From NCBI GenBank assembly GCA_013349615.1, contig DUZJ01000006.1, positions 1 through 64,000 on the forward strand: a DNA stretch of 64,000 nt. Direction: 5' to 3'. Position numbers and translations under genes: made by a program. The notes under the pieces are model-generated. The model was not told the DNA's origin. It did not search any database and worked only from the letters and a program-made list of their open reading frames with translations. This DNA is from Planctomycetota bacterium. Lineage in GTDB: Bacteria; Planctomycetota; Phycisphaerae; Sedimentisphaerales; Anaerobacaceae. Shown one piece after another: positions 1,943 to 53,860 of this stretch. Each line of letters begins with the position of its first letter. The stretch's first letter is position 1.

Positions 1943-2842
1943 GGTGAATTGACAACAGGTGAGCTTTTCAGTGGAAGTGACAGCATACGAATAATTGACC
2001 GAGGAAAGTAAAACCAACGCCGTGTTTCTACAGACTGTAACGGAGCCGTGAGGACACTGATAATACTCACGGCTCTACTTTGTTGGTGGTCTGGCTTTAC
2101 AAAGGAAACACAGGGCAAAATAGCTTTGAGTGTTGGGTTTTTAAGTTTTGAGTGAAAAAAGCGAATTGTCGCCATTGCTGTCACAAGGTGACAATGTGTC
2201 GCAGCAATGCCAACGCGTTTATTAGCGTGAGGAGGTTTTATTTGCGCTCTTTTTTTATGCTCTTTCCCCGTTGAATCGGGGTTCGGATTCTATCCAGAGT
2301 TTCTCAAACTCAGAATGAGCGTAGATCCCGCACCAATTTTGTTTTTTAAATTTGGTGCGTGGACAATCTCCGAAATCCCTGTTCCATAAGCACTTGTCCG
2401 CCTCAGGCGGATCCCTCTTCCCCTGATGTCCGGCAACCTGATACTCTGATATCCTGATATCCACTTCCTGTTTCCCTGTTGCGCTGAAAGTCCGGCCCCT
2501 GAAAGTCCGGCCCCGGGACGGATTGGACGGAATAAACTTTTTTCTCTCAGCATCTAATAAAAGTCCAATATTTTTAATTATTTACTTTACATCTAACATT
2601 TCCTATCGTATAATATTTATCAAACTAATATGTTGAAATAGGCTAAAATGGTCAATAATCATTTATCAATATCGAAGATCCGGCCTTCCTTGGACGGACT
2701 GAATAGTAAATTAGGAAAACTTATAATAGCCACAGAAGCCGTAACCCCCCAAACCGCCTATTCAGCCCACACAGCCAAAAGGTTCTTGTGGTTCGCTCTA
2801 TCACTCTGTTCCTTTGTGCCTTTGTGCCTTAGTGGCATCTTT

Positions 2843-3080
2843 ACAACTGTAGAGGAGTCTCTACAAATCAGCCTTTTTATGCAAAACAAAGCCAATTTCC
2901 AAAAAGGCAAAATGAACGTAAGCCGAGTATCAACAAAGGATTGCGAAGATGAGACACTTGGTCAACGCGGGAAAAACAAACCCAATTCAAACCCAATACA
3001 AACCCAATCAAACCCAATTAAAGCCAATAAAATGCCAAAACAAAGCCAATACAAACCCAAACAAAGCCAATTTCAAAGGC
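2843..3080 (+). repeat. Copy 1 of a ~235 bp dispersed repeat ending in an AAACCCAATTC/AAAGCCAAT word-repeat tract
   Basis: Near-identical to 45924-46156: acaactgtagag...ctacaaatc...ttttatgcaaaacaaa(g/c)ccaatttccaaaaag..., then aaacccaattcaaacccaatacaaaccc. Confidence 0.85.
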
Positions 3081-3237
3081 AAAAAAAATGCTGCTCTCCA
3101 CCTTTATGCTGTGGGATATCTAAGGAAAAAATGATATTCTGTAACCTTATTAATAGGAAATATCAGTTTAATATAATTGCTGGGAAAATATCGAATAATA
3201 AAACAATTTGAAAAAACTGGATGAAAAGGGAAATATT

Positions 3238-19396: not shown

Positions 19397-19442
19397 TCTC
19401 GTTAGAAATCCAGATAACTCCGGCGTCCTGCTTCTAACGCGG
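19397..19442. repeat. Family A palindromic element, short divergent copy A1 (intergenic)
   Basis: tctcGTTAGAAATccagataactccggcgtcctgcTTCTAACgcgg. Confidence 0.65.
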
Positions 19443-19472: not shown

Positions 19473-21326
19473 ATGTTCAAAATTCTCAGGAAACCAAAAA
19501 CACGTGCTTTTTTGCTGTGCGGGCTGTTTTTAGCTCTCCTCAACACTCATTTCTTGAGCCTGGATTCTCGCGCGAGCATCGAGAATCGAGAGTCGAGGGT
19601 CGAGCACTGGGACCCTACCAAATATATTGGCATTGATGAAATTCGGCCCGGTATGGAGGCGTATTGCCTTACCTGCTATAGCGGCACTAAGATTGAAAAG
19701 TTTAGTCTGGATGTTCTAAGCGTAGCTCGTAATGCGATGCCGGGCAGGGATTGGATTCTGGTCCAGGGAACGGATGAGCGTTTTATCCACACAGGCCCGG
19801 TGGCTGGCTGCAGCGGTTCGCCGGTCTATATCGATGGCCGCTTAGCCGGCGCATTAGCTTACGCGTTTTTTTACAGTAAGGACCCACTATACGGTGTTAC
19901 GCCAATCGAGGAGATGCTCAGGGTGGGAGAAGTTAGCCGGCCGCAGCACGCGCAGTCCGGGTACGTGCTTGATTTTTCCAGGCCGATTGATTTTGCCCGG
20001 ATTGACAAGCAAATTACGACTCCACAATCTTCAAGGCGGCGCAGCCTTACCGGTGCCGCGGCTTTGCCCTGTCCGTTGGTTACCTCAGGTTTGCCGGCTC
20101 AGGTCGCTGAACAGTTAAATGCTTTAGTCGAACCTTTCGGACTTGTCGTCGTTTCCGGCGTCGGGGGTGGCGCGTCTGTCAACAAAAAACTGGATGTTCA
20201 GTTGGCCCCGGGGAGCTGCCTGGTCGTACCTTTGGTGACCGGTGATATATCAATGGAAATTGTCGGGACTGTAACCGATGTCGTTGGTGACAAGGTCTAT
20301 GGCTTCGGGCACAGTTATCTCGGTTACGGGCAGGTAAATTTGCCTATGGCCACCGGACAAGTCCACACCGTGGTATCAAGCATGTATCGCTCTCTCAAGC
20401 TCGGCAGCGCGGTCAAAATAGTCGGTGCTCTGACAAGGGATGAGTCGCCGGCGGTCTTCGGACGAATCGGTGCAAAGCCGCACATGTTCCCCCTGACGAT
20501 AACGATAGACGACTACAGAGACAGTAACAAGAGGCTTTACAACTGCCGGGTTGCGCATAATCGGATGCTTACTCCAATGTTAATTCGCTCGACTGTGGCT
20601 GGAGCAGGTCTCTGTCTTGGCGATTTGCCGCACGACCATATGATTGAGTATAAGGTGGCTATCGGCATAGAGAACGCCGAAACGATTACCTTTGAAAATG
20701 TCTCCACAAACATAGGCCTGACCGAGATGCTAATGGAAACTGTTAGCCCGGTCACGATGCTTATGAACAATCCGTATAAAGAAGTCGATATAAAATCGGT
20801 CGATTTTGATGTTCGCATTGTGCCGAAAAGCATCGTTTCGCATATATGGTCAATCGATTTGTCCGATTCAAAAGTCAAGGCAGGCCGGAATATCGACCTC
20901 GGAATAGTTGTAGAATCCGTTCGGACGGGAAAGAAAAAGTACCAGTGCACCTTCGAAATACCTAAGAGCCTGCCGCCTGGAAGATATGATTTGACTATCT
21001 GCGGCGGCTACGGTTATGAGCTGTTTCTCAGGAAAAATACGCCGTACAAATTTGTGGCCCAGAATTTGCCGGGCTTACTGGAGGCCTTGAAGTATCTTCT
21101 TACTATCGAAAGAGACAAGTTGTATTGTATTTTGGCCTTACCGCCAGGTGGTGTCACCATAGAAAAGGCTGAGCTTCCTGATTTACCGGACACAAAGGCG
21201 CTCATCCTGCAAAGTGCAAAAAGAACGCTTAGGACCCAGCTATATCCACACTGGCTCGAAAAAAGAATAGAGTCCGGCACAGTTATTATCGACAAGAAGA
21301 CTATGCGTATAACGGTAGAAAAATAA
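19473..21326 (+). CDS. SpoIVB-type peptidase S55 domain protein
   Basis: YIGIDEIRPGMEAYCLTCYSG, TGPVAGCSGSPVYIDGRLAGALAYAF. Confidence 0.85.
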   Translation: MFKILRKPKTRAFLLCGLFLALLNTHFLSLDSRASIENRESRVEHWDPTKYIGIDEIRPGMEAYCLTCYSGTKIEKFSLDVLSVARNAMPGRDWILVQGTDERFIHTGPVAGCSGSPVYIDGRLAGALAYAFFYSKDPLYGVTPIEEMLRVGEVSRPQHAQSGYVLDFSRPIDFARIDKQITTPQSSRRRSLTGAAALPCPLVTSGLPAQVAEQLNALVEPFGLVVVSGVGGGASVNKKLDVQLAPGSCLVVPLVTGDISMEIVGTVTDVVGDKVYGFGHSYLGYGQVNLPMATGQVHTVVSSMYRSLKLGSAVKIVGALTRDESPAVFGRIGAKPHMFPLTITIDDYRDSNKRLYNCRVAHNRMLTPMLIRSTVAGAGLCLGDLPHDHMIEYKVAIGIENAETITFENVSTNIGLTEMLMETVSPVTMLMNNPYKEVDIKSVDFDVRIVPKSIVSHIWSIDLSDSKVKAGRNIDLGIVVESVRTGKKKYQCTFEIPKSLPPGRYDLTICGGYGYELFLRKNTPYKFVAQNLPGLLEALKYLLTIERDKLYCILALPPGGVTIEKAELPDLPDTKALILQSAKRTLRTQLYPHWLEKRIESGTVIIDKKTMRITVEK

Positions 21327-34999: not shown

Positions 35000-35999
35000 G
35001 AATTCTTGTCGATATTATTCAGCCCGCCGGAGGAAAAAAATAGCTCTCAATAGGCGGCTGGTTCCCGCATTGTCTTATTTTATTAATTATATAGCCCATT
35101 TTAATAAAACGCAAGTGCTTTTAATATAAGCACTTACGGCAACCTTTATTACTAATTTTAAATATTTTCTATACTTTTTATCAACTTTTAGTAAAAAAAC
35201 ACGCACGTCTCACCGACCCGCCAGCACCCACCGAGAGTACTTCCGGGATCCGCTATTCTCTATAATACGCAATTTGCTGGACATTTCAGCAAGCAAATTA
35301 TTAATTTTACTTTTCTTTTGCTTCTCTGTTAATATATCGGGCAGTTTATTTAGAAGCAGGTCGTTAATTTCTCTCCTACTTGCGGAACCGTTCTTGTCGA
35401 TGAAATCAATAATCATATCCCTATAGTATTTTTTATCAAATCCTCTGTACTTAATATATCTTGCCTTCTCCTCTATGGCAGCCGCAATGCGAGAAGACAC
35501 AAATAGATTGGGATATCTTCCTTCAACAAGTTTTGTTGACTTCAATAATTTGTGCTCATCTCTGGAGAGTTGAAAACCTTTTTGAACTTTATCCAGGAGC
35601 ATTACGATATCTAAATCCATAATTGGATTTTTAATCAACAGCCTGGTATAATTTTCATTAAGTACCTTTCCAAAAATCTTAACTTTTACTTTGTTCGGAT
35701 CACCTAAATCGTAATCAGGCAAAGGAAAAAAGCGTTGTTTCTGTATGGTAAACATCTTTTTGATACCACTGCCAATAACGTCAATCATTCCCAGATTAAG
35801 CATCGCGTTCGCTAAGAAATTATTCCTTTGTTTTTGAGGGAAATTCTGCTGAATGACTTTCTCCACACTGCCCGGGATAAAGCTTCCGGCATTGACAAAA
35901 TTTAATTCATCTGGCTTTTCCTCCACCACTACCCGTTCTTTTAATTCAATAGTATAGGAATTTGTAATAATCGCGAAAATAGGCAGTATGCGCAAATTG

Positions 36000-36060
36000 T
36001 CATTTCGAGCGGAGTCGAGAAATCTGTTTAAATAGACCCCTCGACTGCGCTCGGGGTGAC
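36000..36060. repeat. Dispersed inverted repeat (gtcatttcgagcggagtcgagaaatct / cctcgactgcgctcggggtgac)
   Basis: Imperfect inverted repeat directly beside the family A copy A2. Confidence 0.75.
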
Positions 36061-36066
36061 GGCGAG

Positions 36067-36126
36067 CCCCGTTAGAAATTCCAGAAATGGGGGATTATCA
36101 TAGAGAACGGAAGATTTCTAACGGGG
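36067..36126. repeat. Family A palindromic element, copy A2 (inside disrupted gene)
   Basis: CCCCGTTAGAAATTccagaaatgggggattatcatagagaacggaaGATTTCTAACGGGG. Confidence 0.9.
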
Positions 36127-36542
36127 CGAGCGGTTGCCTTAATGAAGTTCCGCCGAAGGCGGTTAATTAAACTCATAAATTTTAAAATCTATTCTGGGAT
36201 TCAACGATCTGGCAAGCCAATTTTCTAATTCTTCATTTCCAATCTTATAGTGCTTGGGTTTGAACTTTGTCCCCACCACTTTATGTGTTTCATTCTCAAT
36301 TCCATACACAAGGTAAGCATTTTTCTTTTCATATAAGCAGGCCGAGTTGGACAATGCTGATATGTGTTGGCCTATTTTCCCCCGGTTTATGTAATTGACT
36401 TTGAACTCAACCCACTCAGTTTCTTTTCGCAAAGCTCTTAATTCATCCAGGGTCTTTTTTAAGTTCCTTGCATTCATCTTATAAGCCATTTTGTTTTACA
36501 CGTTAATTCTGGGTTTAATTCTACTCGTTACTGTCTTGAAAA

Positions 36543-37466
36543 TCAATTAGGAACGATATTATTCAAGAGAGTCTTTGCTCGGCTGAAGGTTTTTTCGGCT
36601 GGTTCTCCCGGCTCAATATCAAGCCACTTCACGAATTTGAACGTTTTGAACCAGGTACGTTGGTTCTTGGCTAACCGCCGGGTGTTCTTCTTTATAAGCT
36701 CGATTGCGTCCTCCAAAGTCACCAGGCCTGAGAGGTGGTCTATTATCTCAGCGTAGCCGATTGCACATCGTGCCTGTTTGCTTAAGGCTTTTTCTTCAGC
36801 TAACAGAGACTTGACCTCATTAACAAGACCGGCGGCGAGCATCTTTTTGACACGGGCGTTGATCCTCTTGTTCTCTTCAGTTCTTTCTCTACGCAGCCCT
36901 ACTATCGTCCAGTTCTGCAAAGGTTCTTCCGCGCTGAACTGCTTCTGCAGACTCGAGATGGGCTTGCCGCTGATTTTATAAACCTCCAGGGCCCGGATTA
37001 TACGTTTAGTGTCGTTGGGGCTGATACGCTCAGCGGCTGCGGGGTCGATTTTTGCTAATTCGCGGTAAAGTTCGGCGCCTTCGGCTTCTGCTCGTGCTCG
37101 CAATTCCGCGCGTATTTGCTCATCAGTTCCAGGTCCTTCAAAGAGACCATACAACAGGGCCTTTATATACAGGGCGGTCCCCCCAACCGCAATGATTGGT
37201 CTTTTTCGGCCCTTTATCTGCCCCATAGCTTCATTCGCCAGTTCCAGAAACGCGCCCACGCTGAACGATTCACTCGGCTCAACTACGTCAATTAAATGAT
37301 AGGCAAGCTTTTCGCGGGCTTCTTGGGGCGGCTTGCACGTGCCGATATCCATCCGCCTGTACACCTTCATCGAGTCGATGCTGATTATTTCAGCACCAAG
37401 ACTTTCACCCAGCCGAAAGGCCAATTGCCCCTTGCCTGATGCCGTAACGCCGAGAATTAAAACCAT
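36543..37466 (-). CDS. miaA: tRNA dimethylallyltransferase
   Basis: MVLILGVTASGKGQLAFRLGESLGAEIISIDSMKVYRRMDIGTCKP; upstream codons of the ORF are repeat-derived. Confidence 0.95.
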   Translation of the reverse strand: MVLILGVTASGKGQLAFRLGESLGAEIISIDSMKVYRRMDIGTCKPPQEAREKLAYHLIDVVEPSESFSVGAFLELANEAMGQIKGRKRPIIAVGGTALYIKALLYGLFEGPGTDEQIRAELRARAEAEGAELYRELAKIDPAAAERISPNDTKRIIRALEVYKISGKPISSLQKQFSAEEPLQNWTIVGLRRERTEENKRINARVKKMLAAGLVNEVKSLLAEEKALSKQARCAIGYAEIIDHLSGLVTLEDAIELIKKNTRRLAKNQRTWFKTFKFVKWLDIEPGEPAEKTFSRAKTLLNNIVPN

Positions 37467-37563
37467 TTTCAATTTTCTATTTACTATTTTCCATTTTCTA
37501 TTTAGTATCGAGTAAGATGTCTTTTCCAATTATCAATCGTAAATAGTCAATAGTAAATAGTCA

Positions 37564-38451
37564 ATGAACTTCAATACTCTATTACGCAAGAAGGCGGAGT
37601 TCGTCAATCATACTCTGCAGCAGCTCCTGGCAAGGCACACTGAGATTAACAGCGATTTAAAGGAAGCGATCAACTACACCCTTGATGCTCCGGGCAAACG
37701 GGTGCGTTCGGCCTTGCTTCTATGGTGCTGCGAACTTGTCAGCGGCAAAATAAACCATAACGCTGAAATTGCCGCCGCTGCCATCGAGATGGTACATACG
37801 TATTCGCTTGTTCACGATGATTTGCCGGCGATGGACGATGATGACCTTCGGCGGGGATTACCAACCTGCCACAAGGCCTTTGATGAGGCAACGGCTATTT
37901 TGACCGGCGATGCCCTTTTGACCCTTGCCTTCGAGATTTTGGGCAAAGAAATTGATGAACCGGCTATTGCCGTAAAATTGGTTAGTCAACTGGCAGAGGC
38001 CGCGGGGCCGGCCGGTATGATTGCAGGACAAATGGCCGACCTCAAAGCTCCTCTAAAAAAGACACAGGCAACCGAACAGGACCTGCGAGCTATCCACACA
38101 AACAAGACGGCTAAGTTGTTCAGATGCGCTGCTGTAATGGGAGCTATTTGTGGCCGCGCAAAAAAAAATCAGCTTGAGTCCTTGTCCGAATACGGCCTGA
38201 AGATTGGGTTGGGCTTCCAGATAGCCGATGATATCCTCGATGTGTGTGCTTCGAGCGAGCATTTGGGTAAGACGGCCGGCAAAGACGCCAAGGCAGACAA
38301 GTGTACATACCCCGCGGTGGTGGGAATTGAAAAGTCAAAGCAGTTGGCAAAAAAACTCACCGACGAGGCGGCAGCGATCCTGGAACCGTTTGGCCAAAAA
38401 GCCGACACCCTCCGAAAGCTCGCCATCGCACTGCTGCAAAGAACAAGATAA
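37564..38451 (+). CDS. ispA: Polyprenyl synthetase (farnesyl/geranylgeranyl diphosphate synthase)
   Basis: GKRVRSALLLWC, LVHDDLPAMDDDDLRRGLPTCH, GLGFQIADDILD; two genes before dxs. Confidence 0.92.
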   Translation: MNFNTLLRKKAEFVNHTLQQLLARHTEINSDLKEAINYTLDAPGKRVRSALLLWCCELVSGKINHNAEIAAAAIEMVHTYSLVHDDLPAMDDDDLRRGLPTCHKAFDEATAILTGDALLTLAFEILGKEIDEPAIAVKLVSQLAEAAGPAGMIAGQMADLKAPLKKTQATEQDLRAIHTNKTAKLFRCAAVMGAICGRAKKNQLESLSEYGLKIGLGFQIADDILDVCASSEHLGKTAGKDAKADKCTYPAVVGIEKSKQLAKKLTDEAAAILEPFGQKADTLRKLAIALLQRTR

Positions 38452-38545
38452 GAACATACTTACAAATCAAATACAGGTCGTTATGCCTGCTAAGATGTTA
38501 GGTTGATTGTCAGGCGGTTTGTCCTAATAAGGGATTTATCCGGTA

Positions 38546-39259
38546 TCATCTTTTTTTAAGCGTTACACCAACTCCGCTTCGGACAATCGTTTCCAGATTA
38601 GGATTTGTTGTTATCGCCTCCATATATTTTGGATCAGCCATCCTGGGGTTAATGTTGTGCGCAATGACAAGGCCTCCGGGGCGGACCAAGGGTAAAAGTT
38701 TATTGAGATAATCAATGTAGCCTTCTTTATCTGCATCGAGAAAGAGTAAATCGATTTTTTCTTTTAGTTTCTTGACCTCGTCGTGAGCATCCCCTTCGAC
38801 AAGCGTAATGATATCGGCCATACCCGCTCGTTTGAAATTTGCACGAGCGGTAGCGGCTCGCTGGGCATCGATTTCAAATGTCGTCAGCTTGCCGCCGGTT
38901 TTTTGAAGAGCCATGCCGAACCAGATGGCGGAATAGCCGGTAGATGTTCCAATCTCAACGACATTTTGTGCATTCATCGACTCCGTCGTAATGCGTAAGA
39001 ATCGCCCGTCTTGTGGCGGTACGTTTCTAAATCTTTGGGTTTTGAGTATATTGGCAAGAATGCCAAGAATTTTTTTCTCATTATCGTTTTTTGGAACGGG
39101 AGGCTTCTCAAGTTCTGAATCACTCTGCCCACTTCCCCTCCCCCTAAATGAACGCTGAGCAAGAGCGTTTGAAAACAAGACTGCTGAGATTCCAATGATA
39201 ACAGTGCTTACTACGATAGTGGTGCGTCTGGCGTTTTTCATCTTGAGTTCCTCCTTCAT
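38546..39259 (-). CDS. SAM-dependent O-methyltransferase (family 3 type), secreted
   Basis: NVVEIGTSTGYSAIWFGMAL, IDLLFLDADKEGYIDYLNKLLPLVRPGGLVIAHN; N-terminal signal-like segment. Confidence 0.85.
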   Translation of the reverse strand: MKEELKMKNARRTTIVVSTVIIGISAVLFSNALAQRSFRGRGSGQSDSELEKPPVPKNDNEKKILGILANILKTQRFRNVPPQDGRFLRITTESMNAQNVVEIGTSTGYSAIWFGMALQKTGGKLTTFEIDAQRAATARANFKRAGMADIITLVEGDAHDEVKKLKEKIDLLFLDADKEGYIDYLNKLLPLVRPGGLVIAHNINPRMADPKYMEAITTNPNLETIVRSGVGVTLKKR

Positions 39260-40079
39260 TTTACATGTAGTTTCAGTTATTGCTCATTTCGTTTCATTAA
39301 GCAAACATTTCCAGCGTTCAACCAGGGCCATGAAATGAATAAACTCGACATTACCCTTTTTAGCATCGTTACGCCTTTTGATGGTCATAGGCTATCAAAT
39401 CCATCTTAAAATCGCAAGTATTTTTAGTCATTTCCGGCCGTAGTTTTACTCTTGATATGGCAGAAATTTACTGAAGACAGTACTGCCGGCCACTGATGGT
39501 CTTTCTTGAATTATGCTTTGTGCTTTTCACCCTCTCCTGTTTCTTTTGTTTCCATTGGTGAGAATGTTCCAGCAGGGCCGCCGGCCGTGAATAAAACCGC
39601 AAACCGTGTGACCAAAGCACCTAATCTCCACCTTTTTCATAGCCAAACAGTGTATGCCAAAGTGCATTAAAAAACAATATTTTGCCAGGTTAAAATCCGT
39701 CTTAAACCTTACTATCCAGTCTAATTTTTCTTTGTTCCTTTTTCGCAATAAATAATCATTTATCACTTTTCTCTAATCATTTATTTCTCTCTTTAGAGAA
39801 ATTCAGGCAGGCAAATTCGTCGAAAAGCTCAATTTCGTTCAAATCTCATCCGCGCGGTTAGACTTTTTACTCCCTTATAATTGGCTGAATATGCGTCTTT
39901 GTGTCGAAAAAAGGCTATTTTACCACTGGCTTTTTTGGGATAAGTTGTTATGATAAAAGCAGTAAAAAATTTTTAGAAATTCGGATTTTTACTCTTCAAC
40001 TATGTGCGCCTTTGGTTGAAATTTCTCGTATAAAAAAGCTAAAAGTTCCGATAATGGCAAAATTATTGGAGCAAATAAA

Positions 40080-40113
40080 CCCCGTTAGAAACTTGATTGA
40101 AAAGGCCCGTTAA
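40080..40113. repeat. Possible left-half or decayed family A copy A3 just upstream of dxs
   Basis: CCCCGTTAGAAacttgattgaaaaggcccgtta; right arm not convincingly present. Confidence 0.4.
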
Positions 40114-40118
40114 ATATA

Positions 40119-42200
40119 ATGGAAACCTCACACGAAAAATGGGAGTTACTAAACGGGGTAGACAGTCCCGACGACGTCAAGAAGCTTCCGGTGCGCCAGC
40201 TAAACACCCTGGCCGACGAAATACGCCGCTTCATTCTCAACTCGGTCGCGCAGACCGGCGGACACCTGGCCAGCAATCTCGGTGTGGTGGAATTGACCTT
40301 GGCGCTGCACTATGTCTTCGATTTCAAAAAAGATAAACTGCTCTGGGACGTCGGCCATCAATGCTATACGCACAAAATCATTACCGGCAGGAAAAACAAG
40401 TTCAAGCTCCTCCGCAAGGCTGGCGGGATAAGCGGCTTTCCAAACCCGGCTGAAAGCGACTACGACCAGTTCGTCGTCGGCCATGCAGGGACCGCCGTAG
40501 CAACCGCAATCGGGATGGCAATAGGGCAAACGCAGCAAAAGAAAAATAATAAAATCGTGGCGCTGGTCGGCGACGCCAGTATCGTTAACGGCGCTTCTTT
40601 CGAGGCGCTCAATAATCTCGGACTGGTCAAGAGGCAATTACTAATCGTCCTCAACGACAACTCGATGGCAATAGACCCGACGCAAGGGGCAGTAGCAAAA
40701 TATTTCTCCAAAGTGCGGCTGAGCCAGACATACGACGATTTGCGAAAGACCACTCATAACATCCTCGAGCACTTGCCGGTCATCGGCAAGAGTGTTGATG
40801 AGGCCGTTGAAAGGATTAAAAAGGGTATTCGAATGGTCCTGCCGGCCAGCCAGATGTTTGAAAGCCTGAACATCCCATACTTTGGTCCCGTTGACGGACA
40901 CGATATCGGCTCACTTATACAGTTGTTCAACGCGCTTGCCGAATTAGAGCACCCGGCAATTCTGCACGTTTACACAAAGAAAGGACAAGGTTTTCATCCG
41001 GCCGGTTCCCAGCCCAGCCCCGTTAGAAGCCCCGGCCTTACTAAAGCAGAGCCTATCTATCCTGCTTCTAAAGGGGCCAGCAGATTTCACTCGACCGGCC
41101 CATTCAAGATAAACAACAATAAAATCGGAGACAGAGTTAAGGTTGAGGCGGTCCAGGATACAAGCCCCGTTAGAAATTCTATAAGGGGGGACATCATACA
41201 GAAAGGGAAGATTTCTAACGGGGCAAGCAGACAAAGCTTCACCAGCGTATTCGGCGAGCATCTGGCCGATTTAGCGGAAAAGGATGACAAAATTGTTTCT
41301 ATAACTTCGGCCATGCGCGATGGCACGGGGCTGATGGAATTTCGCAAGAGATTCGGTGACAGATTCTATGACGTGGGTATTGCCGAAAGTGCGGCTGTGG
41401 ATATTGCGGCCGGGCTGGCCAAGAGCGGCTTAAAGCCGGTCGTCTGTATCTACTCGACCTTTTTACAGCGAAGCTTTGACCAGATATTCCAGGAAGTGGC
41501 CCTGCAGAATCTGCCGGTTGTCTTTTGTGTCGACAGGGCCGGCGTTGTCGGCTCGGACGGGCCAACTCACCACGGTTTAATGGATATCGGCTTTTTACGA
41601 ATGATGCCCAATATGGTACTGACGGCGCCTGCGGATGAGGTTGAGATGAAACTGGCTTTGGAATTCGCATTGAGCGTAGATAAGCCGGTCGTTATTATAT
41701 ATCCGAAAGACTTCGTTCCGAGCCGGAAGTCTGTCCGGGCCGCCTCCGCCAGGCCGTTCAAATTAGGTAAAAGCGTGGTTGCCAAAAAGTCAAAAGATTC
41801 AGCGCTCGCGATTGTCAGCTACGGCAGTATCTTGACAGAATCGCTGGAAGCGGCCGAGCTGCTGGCTAAAGAGGGCATTGCGGTTGATGTGATAAATGCC
41901 CGTTTTGCCGCTCCCATTGATGAAAAAATCATCCAGTTATTAGAGAGGGGCAAAGGTATAATAACGGTAGAAGACCACACGACCGCCTGCGGGTTCGGCT
42001 CAGCCGTGCTCGAAATGGCCGCAGCAAAAACAGCGGTCAGCAAACAGCGGAAAGCGGACAGTAAAAAACTAAACGCTATACGCATGCTCGGGGCACCGAG
42101 GAAGTTCATAAAACACGACACCCGCCCGACGCAGCTTTCCCAGGCCGGTATAAATGCCGTTAAAATAGCTCAGACAGCAAAAGAAATGTTACACGCTTGA
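40119..42200 (+). CDS. dxs: 1-deoxy-D-xylulose-5-phosphate synthase with two in-frame palindromic-element inserts
   Basis: GGHLASNLGVVELTLALHYVF, DVGHQCYTHKIITGR, GDASIVNGASFEALNN, DGPTHHGLMDIGFLRMMPN. Confidence 0.97.
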   Translation: METSHEKWELLNGVDSPDDVKKLPVRQLNTLADEIRRFILNSVAQTGGHLASNLGVVELTLALHYVFDFKKDKLLWDVGHQCYTHKIITGRKNKFKLLRKAGGISGFPNPAESDYDQFVVGHAGTAVATAIGMAIGQTQQKKNNKIVALVGDASIVNGASFEALNNLGLVKRQLLIVLNDNSMAIDPTQGAVAKYFSKVRLSQTYDDLRKTTHNILEHLPVIGKSVDEAVERIKKGIRMVLPASQMFESLNIPYFGPVDGHDIGSLIQLFNALAELEHPAILHVYTKKGQGFHPAGSQPSPVRSPGLTKAEPIYPASKGASRFHSTGPFKINNNKIGDRVKVEAVQDTSPVRNSIRGDIIQKGKISNGASRQSFTSVFGEHLADLAEKDDKIVSITSAMRDGTGLMEFRKRFGDRFYDVGIAESAAVDIAAGLAKSGLKPVVCIYSTFLQRSFDQIFQEVALQNLPVVFCVDRAGVVGSDGPTHHGLMDIGFLRMMPNMVLTAPADEVEMKLALEFALSVDKPVVIIYPKDFVPSRKSVRAASARPFKLGKSVVAKKSKDSALAIVSYGSILTESLEAAELLAKEGIAVDVINARFAAPIDEKIIQLLERGKGIITVEDHTTACGFGSAVLEMAAAKTAVSKQRKADSKKLNAIRMLGAPRKFIKHDTRPTQLSQAGINAVKIAQTAKEMLHA
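41018..41076 (+). repeat. Family A element, copy A4, in frame inside dxs
   Basis: CCCCGTTAGAAGccccggccttactaaagcagagcctatctatcctGCTTCTAAaGGGG; encodes SPVRSPGLTKAEPIYPASKGAS. Confidence 0.85.
41165..41223 (+). repeat. Family A element, copy A5, in frame inside dxs
   Basis: CCCCGTTAGAAATTctataaggggggacatcatacagaaagggaaGATTTCTAACGGGG; encodes SPVRNSIRGDIIQKGKISNGAS. Confidence 0.95.
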
Positions 42201-45490: not shown

Positions 45491-45923
45491 TCATCTCCTT
45501 TAAAACCCTACTGTTATATACTGAAAAAACCAACCATACATTCTAATTATCGTTAACGGTGGCTTTCCCACATTAATTTTCGCACACTGCTAACTATCCA
45601 AATACAATACCCAAAATTGTAATTCCAGTCAAATATTTAGTAGACAGTCGATTTAGCGTGCAGCGGGAATTAAAATGAAATTTTAATAAAATTGTTCGAT
45701 TTTCATTGAACATTCAGAAGCAGTTTGGTATAATATAAATCGCCATAGAAATGGCAGGTATTTAGCGGAGAACCGCAAGTCTTCGTATCAGCAGATACAC
45801 GCCAAAAAAGTTCAAAGTCAAAGGAAACTACGAACTATGAACAATGAACTACTCACAAGCATCGAGAATCAAACTTTAGCTCACTTTAGGCACTTTAGCC
45901 CACTTTTTACTAATTTCCCCTCT

Positions 45924-46156
45924 ACAACTGTAGAGAGCGCACTACAAATCGCTCATTTTATGCAAAACAAACCCAATTTCCAAAAAGCCCAAATGAACGT
46001 AAATATGGTATTAACAGGGGATTATGAAAAAAAGACACTTGGTGAACGTGGGAAAAACAAACCCAATTCAAAGCCAATACAAACCCAATCAAACCCAATT
46101 AAAGCCAATAAAATGCCAAAACAAACCCAATACAAACCCAATTCAAACCCAATTTT
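45924..46156 (+). repeat. Copy 2 of the ~235 bp repeat with AAACCCAATTC word-repeat tract
   Basis: Near-identical to 2843-3080; fused in frame upstream of nadK. Confidence 0.85.
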
Positions 46157-46229
46157 AGTTGATTGTTGTAACGGCTTTGTCGATAATTTATTGGAAAAGA
46201 CTGAGAATTTAATTGTTTTAGGCGATAAG

Positions 46230-47105
46230 ATGGCAACAAGCGGCTTACCTAAATTAGTGGTCTTCAGCGACCCGAAAAAGGGACACGTCGCTGAGATAAT
46301 TACGGAATTTCTCAATTTTGTAAAGAGCAGGGCCGAGGTCATTGTAAGCTGCGGTATAGAGGAATGCACGGTCGATATTTTGAAAGAGGCAGACTTCGCG
46401 GTCGTCTTCGGCGGCGATGGCAGTATTACCTCGGCTGCAAGACAACTTAGCCAGGTGAATGTGCCGGTCATAGGCGTAAACCTCGGCAAGCTCGGCTACC
46501 TGGCCGAATTCAACGTCTCTGAGCTTAAAGAATTTTTTCCTTCCTTAACGGCAGGAAAAGCCCACACAGACAAACGCATGATGTTGGGTTGTGGTATTTT
46601 CAGCAATGGCGAGGAGAAATTCCGCTCAGCAGCCATCAATGATGTTGTTGTCACGGCCGGGCCGCCTTTTAAGATGATTGAGCTGAAGATGTCGGTGGAT
46701 GGCCAGCCGCTTGCCGTTTGTATAAGCGACGGCCTTATAATTTCCACGCCGACGGGGTCCACCGCGTATAATCTCTCGGCGGGTGGGCCTATACTTTCGC
46801 CAAAGATGGAGGCAATGGTGATTACACCAATGTGTCCCCATTCGCTTAGCTTCCGGCCAATCGTTATCAATGCCGACAGTAAAGTGGAGGTGTTTGGGGT
46901 CCGTGTTAATGAAGGCACAACGGTTTCGATGGATGGGCAGGTTTCCTGCAAACTGTCGATTGATGACGTGGTGAGAATCGAAAGGCATAAAGGCGATTTC
47001 CTGGTGGTCAATAATCCGCTTCGGACGCAGTGGGACACTTTAGCTACTAAACTAAGCTGGGCTGAAAAGCCGAAGTATAAGAGGAACGGGAAGCCGACTA
47101 ACTAA
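46230..47105 (+). CDS. nadK: NAD kinase
   Basis: VVFGGDGSITSAARQL, GVNLGKLGYLAEF, ISTPTGSTAYNLSAGGPIL. Confidence 0.94.
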   Translation: MATSGLPKLVVFSDPKKGHVAEIITEFLNFVKSRAEVIVSCGIEECTVDILKEADFAVVFGGDGSITSAARQLSQVNVPVIGVNLGKLGYLAEFNVSELKEFFPSLTAGKAHTDKRMMLGCGIFSNGEEKFRSAAINDVVVTAGPPFKMIELKMSVDGQPLAVCISDGLIISTPTGSTAYNLSAGGPILSPKMEAMVITPMCPHSLSFRPIVINADSKVEVFGVRVNEGTTVSMDGQVSCKLSIDDVVRIERHKGDFLVVNNPLRTQWDTLATKLSWAEKPKYKRNGKPTN

Positions 47106-53801: not shown

Positions 53802-53860
53802 CCCTATTAGAAATTCTGCAAAGTCCGAGAGAATACAAAAAAGGAAGAACTCTAACGGAG
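53802..53860 (+). repeat. Family A element, copy A6, in frame inside the helicase
   Basis: CCCTATTAGAAATTctgcaaagtccgagagaatacaaaaaaggaAGAACTCTAACGGAG; encodes GPIRNSAKSERIQKRKNSNGAG. Confidence 0.85.

Follow-up and report, generated by a model that had tools for sequence, protein, structure and literature searches.

Short inverted-repeat elements inserted in frame in the dxs gene of a planctomycete and in protein genes of other bacterial phyla

Element copies in and around dxs

The window, that is, the entire stretch of 64,000 nucleotides analysed here, contains dxs, an essential gene of isoprenoid synthesis, which hosts three copies of a short palindromic element (Table 1). The gene product gives Pfam matches to DXP_synthase_N, Transket_pyr and Transketolase_C and also matches solved DXS structures (2O1S and others), with the match to 2O1S being interrupted over query residues 304-369, a segment that includes both internal copies. 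The two copies, A and B, had been noticed as in-frame elements in the initial annotation and are both found where it placed them. They share the inverted ends CCCCGTTAGAA…TTCTAACGGGG, with 14-bp arms of 93% and 100% complementarity, respectively, and each is bounded by a perfect 4-bp direct repeat which differs between the copies, being CCAG in copy A and CAAG in copy B, while the interiors of the two are unrelated. With a length of 59 bp and a 4-bp duplication, each insertion amounts to 63 bp and therefore to exactly 21 amino acids; the added peptides were correctly recognised at first, and their estimated size of about 21-22 residues is corrected by the empty sites of relatives.

Table 1. 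Features of the dxs locus and further element copies in the window.
Feature	Position	Strand	Description
Remnant of the ancestral dxs start	40054..40113	+	Now a short leader frame, MAKLLEQINPVRNLIEKAR followed by a stop; identified by comparison with relatives
Element copy N	40080..40157	+	78 bp, old and diverged; encodes METSHEKWELLNG; contains ATG 40119
dxs	40119..42200	+	1-deoxy-D-xylulose-5-phosphate synthase, 693 aa; ORF; hosts three element copies
Target duplication, copy A, left	41014..41017	+	CCAG
Element copy A	41018..41076	+	59 bp; in-frame reading S-PVRSPGLTKAEPIYPASKGA-S
Target duplication, copy A, right	41077..41080	+	CCAG
Target duplication, copy B, left	41161..41164	+	CAAG
Element copy B	41165..41223	+	59 bp; in-frame reading S-PVRNSIRGDIIQKGKISNGA-S
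Target duplication, copy B, right	41224..41227	+	CAAG
Element copy, intergenic	36067..36126	+	60 bp; CGAG/CGAG duplication; not frame-compatible
Diverged element copy	53802..53860	+	59 bp; read in frame within the gene of a dinG-like helicase (GPIRNSAKSERIQKRKNSNGAG); flanks CGGG/CAGG

The inter-domain linker was proposed as the location of both inserts, which does not quite hold for copy A, as it lies not in mid-linker but a few residues ahead of the FH motif; copy B is located ahead of domain II. The histidine of the FH motif just past copy A, presumably an active-site residue as in known DXS proteins, is retained. The earlier suggestion that the enzyme is plausibly functional is supported by the intact flanking motifs, by the Pfam domains on both sides of the inserts and by the lack of any second dxs among the genes listed for the approximately 80% complete genome, and the two peptides are inferred to form tolerated extra loops. 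As a separate observation, nearly all of the aligned relatives carry GDASIVNG in Dxs at the place where the cofactor motif of the E. coli DXS (2O1S) is GDGAITAG.

A third copy, N, is found at the start of the gene, where only a possible half copy had been noted previously; it is instead a full, diverged copy that supplies the start codon, and its right arm ACTAAACGGGG codes for a part of the Dxs N-terminus. In relatives without copy N, Dxs begins with M(A/T/G).LLEQI-DSP (M..LLEQI-DSPDD), and the frame of the ancestral ATG at 40054 enters the element and ends at 40113. Since an in-frame TGA stop codon (40098-40100) is also located inside copy N, the present dxs frame can start only at ATG 40119. 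Its insertion point appears to have been codon 8-9 of the original dxs, where copy N closed the old frame, and the start codon in current use lies inside the element. It is flanked by TAAA and TAGA in the window, and the clearest duplication is seen in its counterpart in the relative G060, which reads TAGA/CCCC…GGGG/TAGA.

In the window as a whole, the CCCCGTTAGAA arm with at most one mismatch occurs 8 times against 1.04 expected, an approximately eight-fold excess that no shuffled sequence reached. At 19397-19442, upstream of a gene at 19473, there may be a decayed palindrome of 46 bp whose ends are similar but which has no matching duplication.

Occupied and empty sites in related genomes

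Dxs was aligned with that of 29 relatives from the same family. In G015 and G016, two members of the same genus with 85-86% identical Dxs, both internal inserts are exactly absent and the linkers are 21 residues shorter at each place, the empty sites reading CAACCAAG/CAGATTTC and similar in the DNA. The initial annotation had proposed such an alignment with palindrome-free relatives, in which linkers of the same length and unrelated sequence would have spoken against insertion; this outcome was not met.

The three copies differ in their distribution. Copy B is present in none of the 29 aligned Dxs proteins and was seen only in the window's genome. The site of copy A is empty in G015, G016 and G058, and in G060, which belongs to another genus together with G058, a related element of 80 bp (28 aa) is located exactly at the copy A site; no further full-length copy of this 80-bp subfamily was found in 89 genomes. 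The possibility that copy A arrived with a dxs segment transferred from G060 was considered and rejected, as the flanks in the window are closer to the window's own genus than to G060. Copy A is probably one old shared insertion followed by later losses, with independent gain not excluded. The copy N insertion is found also in G015, G058, G060 and four genomes of genus g39 and is absent in G016 and G069. To explain this pattern, at least five changes are needed on the Dxs tree, in which the genera group as they should; exact removal by way of the two 4-bp repeats is inferred as a plausible route of loss.

That one gene holds two similar peptides at a spacing of about 150 bp could in principle reflect a local duplication of one dxs segment or random linker growth. 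Such an origin can hardly be upheld, however, given the separate and different target duplications of copies A and B, their unrelated interiors, the exact empty sites within the genus, the same-site homologue in another genus that exists for copy A and not for copy B, and the dozens of equivalent copies in unrelated genes described below. Of the two routes initially suggested, repeated insertion is thus borne out by the copies' own target duplications and unrelated interiors, and local copying is not.

Target duplications, reading frame and host genes

In the 3.77-Mb genome, a search with the perfect-end pattern yielded 27 copies, and the reversed control yielded none. The genome contains 127 exact single arms, and a census of the surroundings of 100 of these found 75 copies, compared with 0 for either control arm. 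The copies are about 35-102 bp long, usually 59-65 bp, with clusters at 59, 62, 65 and 35 bp, and have terminal inverted repeats of 11-14 bp. Perfect 4-bp duplications flank 39 of the 75 copies and duplications matching at three of four positions a further 17; the perfect ones conform to YNNR in all but one case (38/39). Perfect copies are present in 23 of the 89 genomes of the family. Shared insertions were mostly unusable for asking whether interiors diverge faster than ends, as the copies had been found via their ends.

The same ends occur, among the matches listed, in public genomes of Patescibacteria, Omnitrophota, Planctomycetota, Nitrospirota, Deltaproteobacteria, Elusimicrobia, Riflebacteria, WOR-3, Aerophobetes and one Clostridia MAG. 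Again among the matches listed, 83 of 124 cross-phylum copies have perfect duplications, all 83 of them of the YNNR type. Errors in MAG binning could account for single cases and not for the whole pattern. Two viral contigs from IMG/VR (L200 and L201) also carry the element, which points to a possible route between hosts.

Approximately half of the census copies are located inside long reading frames. Palindromes that are short and present in many copies are also typical of REP sequences spread by a REP-associated tyrosine transposase, but here 4-bp YNNR duplications are regularly present and long frames hold half of the copies, so that on these features alone a REP-type origin is very improbable; REPs are typically extragenic, and to our knowledge no target duplications are known for them.

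The insertions in genes follow a frame rule. The length of element plus duplication is divisible by three in 38 of 38 copies within a spanning open frame of 200 aa or more, versus 11 of 29 copies with only frames below 120 aa or none (p=4e-9). Because a frame had to span the copy, the absence of stop codons is in part a product of the selection, but the divisibility by three is not. In the cross-phylum set, among the matches listed, the rule holds for 37 of 38 copies in long frames versus 24 of 60 otherwise (p=1e-9). The palindromic ends leave two of the three phases readable on both strands, as (N)PVRN…ISNG and TPLE…FLTG, with a stop in the third. The PVRN…ISNG phase is used most, in 28 versus 10 cases in the window's genome and 32 versus 6 in the cross-phylum set.

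Divisibility by three also bears on whether the peptides are made at all. Copy B has a strong hairpin potential (DNA fold z=-6.2) and sites near conserved motifs are tolerated, which would be compatible with removal of the element from the RNA or its bypass by the ribosome, so that the peptides never appear. That would, however, leave no reason for a multiple-of-three length, seen in 75 of 76 cases over both sets, or for open frames; moreover, the region 35900-41500 has no Rfam match and 59 nt is far below the size of any self-splicing intron. Bypass or removal is accordingly rated as highly unlikely, and an IStron or self-splicing intron was rejected on the same grounds of length and missing Rfam match in that region, and a known RNA element on the latter. 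Translation of the element peptides is presumed, as an insert that is spliced out or skipped would not have to keep the frame; this is an inference, as no expression or proteomic data exist.

The host genes are diverse. A Pfam domain is recognised across the insert in QueA (domain 54-420, insert 331-352), in RibD (domain 153-385, insert 213-234) and in a GFO/IDH/MocA protein. In Mfd the element copy lies at the UvrB-interaction domain, in PrmC between the N-terminal and methyltransferase domains, in RimO ahead of the TRAM domain and in a MetX-MetW fusion near the start. The metX-metW fusion carries a same-site insertion in two planctomycete genomes (L212, C17:3014-3075, and L162) with flanks 54-68% identical, so that the two genomes either share one old insertion or were hit more than once at this site.

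Type IV prepilin leaders form a recurrent target, with four examples in the window's genome and another four elsewhere, in other phyla or genomes, such as GFTPLEV…LLLTG/FTMVELMAV and similar. Matches to N_methyl or T2SSG were obtained for 7 of the 8 prepilins, some of the N_methyl ones being under the Pfam cut-off. The target TTTA lies within the codons for F-T, and L-T-G is provided by the right end of the element, so that the G/FT peptidase cleavage site is rebuilt. The right end together with the duplicated TTTA would restore …LTG/FTLVE, and the mature pilin should stay unchanged. In a Riflebacteria prepilin leader (L111, 1654-2238), two successive element-like stretches are found ahead of the cleavage site.

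Selection of the inserts for a new protein function, rather than their tolerance as hitch-hikers, might be inferred from copy N, which is common to three genera and provides the dxs start, and from several other insertions common to relatives. Such domestication nevertheless appears improbable, as members of one genus differ in their inserts (copy N is missing from G016 and G069, and copy A from G058), the host genes are unrelated and the interiors vary freely, all of which indicates that the inserts are dispensable.

Identity of the element and relation to known systems

The sequences themselves show that the copies are dispersed, have inverted ends and target duplications, correspond to exact empty sites and follow the frame rule within genes, and the inserts very probably represent a non-autonomous transposable element of the MITE type. 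Several features of such elements are present, namely a short length, many copies (75) and the lack of an own transposase gene, terminal inverted repeats, a target duplication of fixed length (4 bp) and empty sites in relatives for dxs copies A, B and N. Against this reading stand the missing autonomous partner, of which none was found in the draft MAGs, and interiors that are more variable than expected after a recent burst of a single master copy. The element, whose inverted ends CCCCGTTAGAA measure 11 bp and whose YNNR target is duplicated over 4 bp, is presumably moved by an end-recognising transposase encoded elsewhere. Insertions with a total length that is a multiple of three are inferred to be read through, adding 13-35 amino acids, and frame-breaking insertions within genes would be purged.

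The closest parallel appears to be the Rickettsia palindromic elements (RPE), reportedly the work of Ogata et al. in 2000 and 2002. RPEs are short palindromic repeats found in frame in unrelated conserved genes, with a preferred phase and tolerance at the protein level (PMC2229807, PMC10969869), and their target duplication is entered as '?' (PMC2229807 Table 1). The likeness of RPEs and their Wolbachia equivalents to the present elements lies in the in-frame insertion into unrelated protein genes (38/38 here). However, RPEs are 105-150 bp long and Rickettsiales-specific, whereas the present family measures about 35-102 bp, with modes at 59 and 62 bp, and is spread over many phyla; the ends are also different, and the 4-bp YNNR duplications are clear. 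By length, host, ends and duplications, and without a sequence comparison to an RPE library, the dxs element family appears separate from RPE, though it works likewise. ERIC, Correia and other bacterial MITEs are similarly non-autonomous with inverted ends, target duplication and some in-frame gene fusions (PMC2229807), but usually have TA ends and are mostly intergenic, unlike the present family with its CCCC/GGGG ends and 4-bp YNNR target. In the literature searched, the end sequence was not found in this context and no such elements were reported for these phyla.

The IS1380, IS5 and IS701 groups share the 4-bp duplication, but no transposase gene with the present ends was found. Ends of IS1380 begin with CC, and its duplication is 4-5 bp. 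As a parent IS1380 was rejected, because the two full copies (G017 and G065) lack these ends and the window's own genome, which has no match to IS1380, DDE_Tnp_1 or DDE_5, contains none. IS4/IS5-type and IS701-type transposases were likewise rejected, having few matches in element-rich genomes and none with these ends. Among the fetched loci, no gene-bearing end pair had a recognisable transposase, including the distant end pairs in L111, L158 and L168, and no transposase ORF was seen with the near repeats in L203 and L205 or in a 1.8-kb stretch of C53 with a 36-bp version of the palindrome at both ends. The genomes in question are MAGs of draft quality, and IS copies are often missing from such assemblies.

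Palindromes within protein genes were so far presented as peculiar to Rickettsia and Wolbachia, and how they spread was unclear. Here, an apparently separate family with plain marks of transposition is present in conserved genes such as dxs, ribD, queA, mfd and metX of a planctomycete lineage, which points to an unidentified widespread transposase. On balance the copies seem to represent an undescribed multi-phylum family of transposable elements that survives mainly in protein genes through ends readable in two phases, frame keeping, rebuilding of prepilin sites and donation of start codons, and that routinely adds peptides, although this wider reading is held with appreciably less assurance than the MITE-type identity. 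The addition of peptides to working enzymes by mobile DNA thereby becomes testable in many genomes, and annotators should be warned of spurious inserts and shifted start codons.

A second repeat family, encoding MQNKPNF…NKPNSNPIQTQSNPIKANKMPKQ, is present in the window at 2648-3211 and 45837-46300 and also in L203, L205, L209 and L214. Fusions place this family upstream of conserved genes, an NAD kinase-like one at 45837 and PrmC in L214, and in L203 and L205 it is found close to a 36-bp version of the palindrome.
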